The notes beneath the pieces are model-generated. The model was not told the DNA's origin. It saw nothing but the letters and a program-made list of their open reading frames with translations, and made no database searches. A stretch of 64,000 bases of DNA from NCBI GenBank assembly GCA_020201035.1, contig JAIVHO010000037.1, positions 58,810-122,809 on the forward strand, in the 5' to 3' direction. Origin of the DNA: Bacteroidales bacterium (GTDB taxonomy: Bacteria; Bacteroidota; Bacteroidia; Bacteroidales; VadinHA17). A program made the position numbers and the translations under genes. This document shows, one piece after another, positions 27,526 through 63,651 of the stretch (positions are counted from its first letter, which is position 1; the number at the start of each line of letters is the position of its first letter).

Positions 27526-29331
27526 TTACGTTCCACCAAATTTCCGAAGCTGTTTAAGCAGTTTTTCCGATCTGGAGCGACCAATAAGGTCTGCAATCTT
27601 TTCAGGAGGTGCTGCGGCAATCTTTTCAAGGGATCCAAACTCTTTTAGCAACTTCTCCCTTGTAACCGGACCAATCCCCTTAATTTGATCAAGCATCGAT
27701 CTCTTCATTGACAAGGAACGCTGATTGCGGTGAAATGAAATTCCAAAACGATGAGCTTCATTACGGGCGTTCTGAATAATCTTCAGCGAAACCGAGTTCT
27801 TATCTATATAGAGTGGAACCGGATCATCCGGAAAATAGATCTGTTCAAGCCTCTTTGCTATTCCAACAAGAGAAACCCTGCCCCTTATCCCAAGCCTGTC
27901 AAAACTTTTCAAGGCGGAAGAGAGCTGTCCCTTTCCACCGTCAACAATAACGAGTTGTGGCAGTTTTTCGTCCTCATCCAGTAAACGCCGGTACCTCCTG
28001 AATACCACTTCCTCCATGCTTGCGTAGTCATCCGGCCCCGTTACCATTTTTATCTTATAGTGTCTGTATTCACCCCGGGATGGTTTTCCATTACGGAATA
28101 CCACACATGCTGCAACCGGGTTGTCTCCCTGAATGTTAGAATTATCAAAACATTCTATATGCACAGGAATTTCAGGAAGCCTTAAATCATTTTGCACTTT
28201 TTTAAGAATTTCAACTCCACGGTCCTCCTCCCGTCTGTTTAACCTCTGCTTTTGTCTTGACAAACGGTAATGGACAGCATTTCGTTCTGCAAGTTCCAGC
28301 AGTCTCAGTTTATCGCCGCGCACCGGGAGAGTATACTTGATCCTATCGTCCTGTATATCAGGTCTTAAAGGAACAATGATTTCACGGGCATCACTCCTGT
28401 ACCTTTCACGCATCACGCTGATTGCCAGCGCTATAACATCCTCCAGAGATTCCTCTATCCTTCTCCTGAATTCCACACTGTATGCCTGCACAACCGCTCC
28501 CCTCACAACTCTCATATAATGAATAAACACCTTCTCATCCTCTTCGCTGTAGGCCAATACATCTACATCCCTGACAGCAGGGCCAACAATAGCTGACTTA
28601 CTCTGGTAGTTCTCAAGTACAGCAATTTTTTCCTTTACGGCCTGGGCCGCCTCAAACAGCAAATTATCCGCCAGAGATTTCATTACCCCTTTAAGATGAT
28701 GAGCTACATTATGAATATTCCCTTTAAGTATCTCTTCAACCTGAGCAACAGCAAGATTATACTCTTCCTCCTTCTGTTTCCCTACACATGGCGCAAGACA
28801 ATTTCCCAAATGAAACTCCAGGCACACCCTGTATTTTGACTCCCTTATCTTTTCCGGAGCCAGATTATAACCACAGGTCCGCAGTTTATAGAGCTTTCTT
28901 ACCAGTTGCAGAAGTGTTCTGGCCATGAAAGCAGATGTATATGGACCATAGTAACGTGATCCATCAGCCACAATATTCCGGGTTATAAATACCCTTGGAA
29001 AATTTTCATTCTTTACGCAAATCCACGGAAAGGATTTGTCATCCTTCATCAGCACATTATATCTGGGCTGATACTCCTTGATAAAATTATTTTCGAGCAG
29101 AAGTGCATCCGATTCGCTCCCCACAACAATATGTCTGATCTCATTTATACGTGCAACCATTACCCGGGTCTTTCCTTCCACCATATTGCTGAAATAGCTT
29201 AAGACCCTCTTTTTCAGATTCTTTGCCTTGCCTACATAAATTATATTTTCACCTGAATCAACAAAAATATAGATTCCGGGGAGACCGGGAAGCAGAAGCG
29301 CCTGTTCTCTTAAAGATTCTCTTTCCTTCAT
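27526..29331 (-). CDS. uvrC: UvrABC system protein C
   Basis: GIY-YIG (PGIYIFVDSGENIIYVGKAKNLKKRV), ECFDNSNIQGDNPVAACVVF, HhH; ATG 29331 preferred over track TTG 29406. Confidence 0.95.
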   Translation of the reverse strand: MKERESLREQALLLPGLPGIYIFVDSGENIIYVGKAKNLKKRVLSYFSNMVEGKTRVMVARINEIRHIVVGSESDALLLENNFIKEYQPRYNVLMKDDKSFPWICVKNENFPRVFITRNIVADGSRYYGPYTSAFMARTLLQLVRKLYKLRTCGYNLAPEKIRESKYRVCLEFHLGNCLAPCVGKQKEEEYNLAVAQVEEILKGNIHNVAHHLKGVMKSLADNLLFEAAQAVKEKIAVLENYQSKSAIVGPAVRDVDVLAYSEEDEKVFIHYMRVVRGAVVQAYSVEFRRRIEESLEDVIALAISVMRERYRSDAREIIVPLRPDIQDDRIKYTLPVRGDKLRLLELAERNAVHYRLSRQKQRLNRREEDRGVEILKKVQNDLRLPEIPVHIECFDNSNIQGDNPVAACVVFRNGKPSRGEYRHYKIKMVTGPDDYASMEEVVFRRYRRLLDEDEKLPQLVIVDGGKGQLSSALKSFDRLGIRGRVSLVGIAKRLEQIYFPDDPVPLYIDKNSVSLKIIQNARNEAHRFGISFHRNQRSLSMKRSMLDQIKGIGPVTREKLLKEFGSLEKIAAAPPEKIADLIGRSRSEKLLKQLRKFGGT

Positions 29332-62718: not shown

Positions 62719-62792
62719 GGGCCCATAGCTCAGCTGGTCAGAGCACCTGACTCATAATCAGGGGGTCGCTGGTTCGAGCCCAGCTGGGCCCA
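62719..62792 (+). tRNA. tRNA with CAT anticodon (tRNA-Ile2 or elongator tRNA-Met)
   Basis: GGGCCCATAGCTCAGCTGGTCAGAGCACCTGACTCATAATCAGGGGGTCGCTGGTTCGAGCCCAGCTGGGCCCA; complete cloverleaf arms. Confidence 0.95.
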
Positions 62793-62796
62793 CACG

Positions 62797-62824
62797 CAGG
62801 CAGCCATTAATGGCTGCCTTTTCC
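62797..62824 (+). terminator. Intrinsic terminator of tRNA gene
   Basis: AGGCAGCCATTAATGGCTGCCT palindrome followed by TTTCC. Confidence 0.75.
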
Positions 62825-62839
62825 TTTGCTGGCTGGCCT

Positions 62840-62868
62840 CGAAGCCCCCGCGACAGTCTGTCTCCTCG
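62840..62868 (+). repeat. 29-bp direct repeat, left copy (CGAAGCCCCCGCGACAGTCTGTCTCCTCG)
   Basis: Identical to 63231-63259. Confidence 0.95.
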
Positions 62869-62877
62869 CTAAAATGA

Positions 62878-63216
62878 TCCCCCGGATCATTTATTAACGC
62901 TCGGTCCGGTTCGAGCCCAGCTGGGCCCACCTTAGCCCGCCATAGCTTTAGCAACGGCGGGCAAAGCCCACCAATCCAACAATTCTGGTATGTCTATATT
63001 CTGGACTGTCAGGATGGAAACCATTATACCGGATGTACTAATGACCTTGAAGACAGACTTAAACGCCATAGTTTAGGACAGGTTAAGGCAACAAAGGACA
63101 GATTGCCTGTCAAGCTAAAGACATATGTAGCATTTAACGATAAGTATAGGGCATATTACTTTGAGAGGTACTTGAAAAAAGGATCAGGTCGTGCCTTTGC
63201 AAAAAGGCATCTTTAA
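62878..63216 (+). CDS. GIY-YIG nuclease-domain ORF without ATG/GTG/TTG start (recognisable domain 62986-63216)
   Basis: WYVYILDCQDGNHYTGCTNDLEDRLKRHSLGQVKATKDRLPVKLKTYVAFNDKYRAYYFERYLKKGSGRAFAKRHL*; stop-bounded frame from 62878. Confidence 0.7.
   Translation, partial: SPGSFINARSGSSPAGPTLARHSFSNGGQSPPIQQFWYVYILDCQDGNHYTGCTNDLEDRLKRHSLGQVKATKDRLPVKLKTYVAFNDKYRAYYFERYLKKGSGRAFAKRHL
62908..62931 (+). repeat. Duplicated tRNA 3' end fragment
   Basis: GGTTCGAGCCCAGCTGGGCCCAC identical to tRNA T-arm/acceptor at 62771-62793. Confidence 0.93.
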
Positions 63217-63230
63217 GTTATTTCCGGTCC

Positions 63231-63259
63231 CGAAGCCCCCGCGACAGTCTGTCTCCTCG
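63231..63259 (+). repeat. 29-bp direct repeat, right copy
   Basis: Identical to 62840-62868. Confidence 0.95.
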
Positions 63260-63651
63260 GGGAAAAGATTGTAGGTGGTTTTTTTGTGGATGCCAGTTTG
63301 GCGCCAGGATTTGTGGAAAGGTTGGTGTTAAAAGTAACCATTTAAGTAATCAAATTAGATTATTAACTCAGTCGACTAACCTCTTGACTACCAGGGACAA
63401 TACTGGATTTTCCACCGGACTCCATTATGCTCTATACCACTACATTAGGAAAATAATGTACAGTTGTTTTTCCTATATACTCCACCTGTCTTTCTTTTGG
63501 CTGGCAAGTTTTCTGGCAAATGTAGTGCCAAATGCATGAATGCATTTTGTTAGGGAAGCTTCGCATTTGGATAACATTCAGCAGATGACCTAACAGTCTT
63601 CATTAGATTTAAACTATATGCTGGTTTGAATGAATATGCTATCCAAAATTG

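Follow-up and report, generated by a model that had tools for sequence, protein, structure and literature searches.

tRNA genes are a classic target of mobile DNA, and the islands found in them are credited to tyrosine recombinases (PMC4383910). According to the Islander paper, no enzymes other than tyrosine recombinases are known to target tDNAs (PMC4383910). Its pipeline demands an integrase and a length of at least 2 kb (PMC4383910), so that integrase-free elements of less than 1 kb would be filtered out. In T4-like phages the free-standing GIY-YIG enzyme SegB has been linked to breaks inside tRNA sequences and to spread driven by recombination (PMC13096335). The part of the 2006 survey of GIY-YIG proteins considered here shows no association with tRNA genes (PMC1564403), and in the open-access PMC literature we found no description of GIY-YIG elements at tRNA ends of the kind reported below.

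We analysed a 64,000-nucleotide stretch of a Bacteroidales genome (the window), in which a GIY-YIG frame lies behind a tRNA-Met gene. Comparison with related loci leads us to consider, with moderate confidence, that the frame is a degenerate copy of an integrase-free selfish element that would be specific to tRNA and tmRNA 3' ends and carry a homing-type nuclease.

The tRNA-Met locus of the window

A first-pass annotation had described a tRNA-Met(CAT), two 29-mers, a duplicated tRNA 3' end and the GIY-YIG frame in an order that is exact to the base, along with two hairpins that are both present in the sequence. The locus reads as follows:

62719..62793, + strand: intact tRNA-Met (CAT), the target gene (ARAGORN; Rfam 72.9 bits)
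62794..62834, + strand: tRNA trailer with terminator hairpin GGCAGCCATTAATGGCTGCC, different from the native trailer of the empty-site relative L130
62835..62907, + strand: complete copy, about 73 nt, of a dispersed repeat, RE (covariance model R1, 82.3 bits; a family of copies)
62908..62930, + strand: T-arm and 3' acceptor strand of the tRNA once more, displaced from the gene (23/23 identities)
62931..62971, + strand: left end and leader of the GIY-YIG element (CTTAGCCCGCC..CGGCGGGCAAAGCCCAC; compared with L044 and L045)
62983..63216, + strand: GIY-YIG nuclease frame with 77 aa of homology and a stop codon; catalytic residues retained, start codon absent (Pfam; alignment; start-codon scan)
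63226..63268, + strand: second, truncated copy of RE, hairpin and right end lost (weak R1 match, E 0.05)
63269..63520, no strand assigned: native downstream flank of the tRNA-Met gene (aligns with the unoccupied relative L130)

The complete RE copy contains the first 29-mer CGAAGCCCCCGCGACAGTCTGTCTCCTCG (62840-62868) and a variable hairpin (62872-62892), here AAATGATCC, and its right end, ..TTAACGCTCGGTCC, directly adjoins the T-arm copy. The latter repeats at 62908 the sequence GGTTCGAGCCCAGCTGGGCCCAC found at 62771 (23/23). The second 29-mer (63231-63259) lies within the truncated RE copy; the two are identical, as first reported, and belong to a 44-nt repeat that matches at 86%.

Comparison of occupied and empty tRNA-Met loci, proposed in the first-pass annotation as a check, located the far end of the inserted DNA. 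The tRNA-Met site is empty in L130 and the same tRNA-Met is unoccupied in further genomes. From 63269 onwards the window aligns again with L130 (200 identities in 257 columns), where the match begins 27 nt past its tRNA-Met, and the flanks upstream of tRNA-Met also match. Later insertions have probably moved the GIY-YIG insert off its tRNA. An Rfam scan of the window gave tRNA only and no group I intron core; a group I or self-splicing intron with a GIY-YIG ORF was rejected for want of an intron match in the window.

The reported GIY-YIG ORF (62986-63216) holds as a frame, with a match to Pfam GIY-YIG (PF01541) at E 2e-14 and 53.9 bits (cut-off 22.6), and 62986 is its first codon of homology rather than a start. 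In an alignment with 15 relatives residues Y5, Y15, G17, R25 and E61 are invariant. The fold motifs and the catalytic Tyr, Arg and Glu place the frame, by its sequence, within the GIY-YIG nuclease superfamily. The protein consists of the GIY-YIG domain only, about 77 aa, without a DNA-binding module (NUMOD-type modules are common in homing enzymes and not strictly required), and its nearest solved sequence relatives are the UPF0213-type structures 1zg2 and 1ywl (E 1e-15). The sole other GIY-YIG match in the genome is a 626-aa frame at about window position 29,056 that is most likely UvrC. Because dN/dS between element copies is 0.01-0.18, the protein is maintained, under strong purifying selection.

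The window copy itself has decayed. In its sisters L044 and L045 an ATG lies 13 codons upstream, within the second hairpin of the leader. The leader of the window agrees with theirs on both sides, and the stretch between two similar hairpin arms is missing, leaving the hairpins fused; this deletion took away the start codon and the T-run of the terminator. A start-codon scan found no ATG, GTG or TTG anywhere upstream in the window frame. Because the start codon is lost, this degenerate copy is probably inactive.

The dispersed repeat RE

The 29-mers had been taken as the two bounds of one cassette. This idea did not survive the comparison: they belong to one complete and one truncated copy of RE and are not private to the cassette, since this repeat of about 73 nt also adjoins other tRNAs of the same genome. 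It occurs after the genes for tRNA-Gln(CTG), tRNA-Gln(TTG), tRNA-Lys and tRNA-Arg, and two tRNA-Leu genes have it nearby. Behind the RE at tRNA-Gln(CTG), and likewise at tRNA-Lys, the T-arm and 3' end of the respective tRNA are repeated, with about 65 bp duplicated at tRNA-Lys, terminator included; at tRNA-Arg the tRNA copy is mixed, and at tRNA-Gln(TTG) no copy of the tRNA 3' end was seen. A role of the 29-mers as element ends was rejected because RE stands alone at these tRNA-Gln, -Lys, -Arg and -Leu genes. The covariance model found RE in 49 of 59 family genomes, with up to 31 copies per genome, many of them away from tRNAs.

The central hairpin of RE varies in sequence between copies while its pairing is kept, nine pairs having two-sided changes. 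Since the copies are dispersed and the hairpin pairs persist through sequence change, RE is a separate palindromic repeat family, one that favours tRNA genes. In some GIY-YIG elements of the family (L023, L026 and the window) RE is located past the ORF, and a partnership between the two is possible, judging from this arrangement. Elsewhere GIY-YIG elements typically come without the 29-mer repeats. A REP/RAYT system was rejected for RE: the Y1 (RAYT) transposase PF01797 had no match in the window's genome, which is 94% complete, and the control was positive in 5 of 14 genomes.

RE was also seen in other surroundings. Inverted copies of a tRNA 5' end flank it beside tRNA-Leu in L170, L173, L179 and L180, and upstream in L040 a reversed RE lies between direct copies of about 105 bp of a promoter and tRNA 5' half.

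GIY-YIG elements at tRNA and tmRNA 3' ends

A family scan gave 18 close loci, mostly directly behind tRNA-Met or tmRNA 3' ends. A scan of 85,488 species genomes brought the number of relatives to at least 571, from Bacteroidota and Patescibacteria along with a few other genomes; many of the loci are on MAG contigs. Association was counted in the best 80 of these relatives, picked by protein similarity alone. The first-pass annotation had suggested a tRNA-targeting element and named ORFs independent of tRNA ends as the observation that would speak against it. Same-strand tRNA or tmRNA 3' ends lie 65-377 nt upstream (median 131) in 65 of the 80. A further nine are joined to a 3' fragment of a tRNA or tmRNA, giving a nearly universal link (74/80), so that the ORFs did not turn out to be independent of tRNA ends. 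A tRNA or tmRNA on the opposite strand was found in none of the 80 and a downstream one in five. The targets are tRNA-Ser, tmRNA and the tRNAs for Trp, Ala, Met, Val and Asp, with one tRNA-Thr neighbour.

Viral contigs (IMG/VR) contain ten weak homologues, at no more than 54% identity over shorter stretches and none with an intact tRNA beside the gene. A phage or plasmid origin was rejected: the homologues there are distant (<44% identity), and those of IMG/VR number just ten weak ones. One viral contig (L223:2240-2500) holds a 50% identical homologue with the left end CTCCGCCAACCTTCGC and no intact tRNA. Another GIY-YIG subfamily stands in tandem behind tRNA-Leu(TAA) in L040 (1140-1916), each copy with a tRNA 3' end, and in L041 (1300-1816) a GIY-YIG ORF lies between tRNA-Pro 5' fragments and an intact tRNA-Pro.

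The typical element measures about 0.3-0.7 kb (<1 kb), has a stand-alone GIY-YIG nuclease as its sole gene and spares the tRNA or tmRNA. At the junction of most loci the tRNA ends ..CCRCC and the element begins TTCGCC or TTCGCT; the left end CCTTCGCC/CCTTCGCT is present in 44 of the 65 relatives with an upstream tRNA/tmRNA. In Bacteroidota a strong hairpin starts at this left end, with T after it, and has the look of a terminator brought by the element. Ahead of the ORF stands a hairpin whose 3' arm duplicates the last 5-7 nt of the host's own tRNA: TCCGC at Ser, TCCAC at tmRNA and Ala, CCCGC at Trp, GCCCAC at Met and Val, and AGACCGC at Asp. The direct terminus copy averages 5.04 nt as against 4.20 ± 0.11 when tRNA ends are shuffled among loci, a value reached in 0 of 500 shuffles. 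The inverted copy (5.16 versus 4.72) falls inside the shuffled maximum and is weaker evidence than the direct one. Backed by this target tracking, the GCCCAC that ends the window leader is a copy of the tRNA-Met terminus. RNAalifold gave a consensus of compact leaders with mixed pairs; a possible three-way junction fits single-sequence folds and part of the A/U swaps. In L097 and L098 the leader unit is present in 2-4 tandem repeats between tRNA-Ser and ORF.

Past the ORF the original 3' fragment of the tRNA, displaced and beginning in the T-arm or T-loop, is found in L086, L074, L096, L059, L072 and L068. Fragments of at least 12 nt after the ORF occur in only 8 of 64 testable loci, some of these being real downstream tRNA genes.

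Within the window's family the left end is fused to 57 tRNA 3' ends in 41 of 116 genomes, the reversed-pattern control giving 0. ORF-less copies appear to be common there, since a GIY-YIG frame is detectable in only 7 of the 30 family loci checked, some of whose contigs stop early; decayed and stop-containing copies are present too. Because the exact left-end pattern was found in 2 of 300 sampled Bacteroidota genomes, either the element is patchy or the pattern is too strict. Tandem copies are stacked in L027/L220 and L040.

Repeated switching of target tRNAs is shown by comparing protein relationships with insertion sites. The protein tree (81 proteins, 77 columns, poorly resolved) requires 21 target changes, and closely similar proteins sit at different targets: L085 (tmRNA) and L087 (tRNA-Ala) are 97% alike, and L103 (Ala) and L073 (tmRNA-type 3' fragment) 91%.

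Other insertions were observed at tRNA-Met. In L125 and L133 the gene is followed by an insert of about 100 bp without GIY-YIG, which ends GAGTCGAAGGGA; next comes a displaced GCCCAGCTGGGCCCAC, with a single mismatch in L125 and with native flank after it in L133. This is a different short element using the T-loop. In L015, L019, L025, L026 and L030 broken copies of the tRNA-Met 5' half lie upstream of the intact gene, some holding palindromes such as TCCCGATAGCTATCGGGA; by their structure they are insertion scars, on the 5' side too.

Routes of insertion and comparison with known systems

We favour a selfish element in which the nuclease would cut unoccupied tRNA-gene 3' ends and repair would copy the element in, by intronless homing or a related break-and-insert route. 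Insertion would destroy the cut site and restore a working tRNA. The host would be unharmed because the tRNA bases are kept up to CC, the terminal A presumably being supplied by the CCA enzyme, which adds the terminal A to tRNA. In the window the GIY-YIG element would have entered tRNA-Met first, an order that we infer, and RE would then have inserted between tRNA and element, pushing the element with the 23-bp tRNA 3' end away. A second RE would have come to lie past the ORF, and a deletion between the leader hairpins would have removed the start codon. The alternative offered at first, a scar of repeated insertions, also describes the locus well, two RE copies being stacked with the GIY-YIG insert.

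Homing accounts for spread from one tRNA site to others of identical sequence. How the leader comes by the terminus of a new tRNA is not accounted for by homing alone, so that another chemistry of insertion may be at work. Tentatively, the integrase-free elements of Bacteroidota and Patescibacteria could form a distinct class, specific to tRNA/tmRNA 3' ends, in which nuclease and structured leader insert and retarget by a route other than classical homing. An example would be templated fold-back synthesis at the cut end of the tRNA, and ORF-less leaders would be moved in trans. The leader would then acquire the terminus of its target tRNA in both inverted and direct copies.

The regenerated tRNA and the displaced 3' fragment are the signature of tyrosine-integrase islands (PMC4383910), and displaced fragments starting in T-arm or T-loop would suit insertion of the segment by a tyrosine recombinase supplied in trans (from a phage, from an island or as Xer), with the GIY-YIG gene as passenger. 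We find this unlikely, given elements of less than 1 kb, the lack of an evident integrase in the list of ORFs near the copy in the window, one nuclease family under purifying selection at all targets, the use of several unrelated tRNAs, and leader copies of the tRNA terminus that correspond to no known att feature. Patchy presence (left end in just 2/300 phylum-wide), the use of different tRNAs by related genomes, unoccupied sites, copies that lack the ORF or contain stops, and the stacked tandems (L027/L220, L040) all sit poorly with a non-mobile host gene, co-transcribed with tRNA or tmRNA, whose nuclease acts on the tRNA or its trailer. Such a gene would explain the fixed same-strand position just downstream, the strong protein conservation and the structured leader separating tRNA and ORF, yet we rate it quite improbable. 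There is very little to be said for the tRNA-Met locus as a mere pile of tRNA-attracted palindromic (REP-like) repeats that trapped the GIY-YIG ORF by chance. RE and other palindromes do insert at tRNA genes with tRNA duplications, and RE accounts for the 29-mers; however, the ORF-tRNA link of 74/80 relatives spans two major lineages, most of their elements show no RE, and in L016 and L045 the ORF stands at tRNA-Met without repeats and so arrives alone.

If the selfish-element reading is true, mobile DNA would have a second way into tDNAs, and the elements, present in Bacteroidota and also in the ultra-small Patescibacteria, would rank among the smallest autonomous ones known. Many database GIY-YIG entries start with translated tRNA-like sequence, and the elements would account for many annotations as 'GIY-YIG nuclease family'. 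The match between hairpin and target offers a direct way of testing whether an element can be retargeted to another tRNA.

With the UPF0213-type proteins (1zg2, 1ywl), filed as hypothetical proteins and likened here by sequence alone, the nuclease shares the minimal stand-alone domain. REP/RAYT systems are similar in their short palindromic repeats, some ORF-less and presumed mobilised by a small enzyme; here the enzyme is GIY-YIG instead of Y1 and the sites are tRNA ends. As in the tDNA islands of Islander with their tyrosine integrase, the target gene is intact and copies can stack in tandem, and a minority of our loci show a displaced 3' fragment at the far end, whereas our elements have a single short ORF, no recognised integrase and less than 1 kb. 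The likeness to SegB is that of free-standing GIY-YIG genes beside tRNA genes, here with the nuclease adjoining the insertion locus, outside an intron or intein, and, as for SegB/SegF-type enzymes, with unoccupied alleles at the same site, such as L130. SegB is a phage enzyme in phage tRNA clusters, whereas the elements described here are chromosomal, sit exactly at tRNA/tmRNA 3' ends and bring a structured leader, often with a terminator-like hairpin, to at least seven target types with a bare 77-aa domain.
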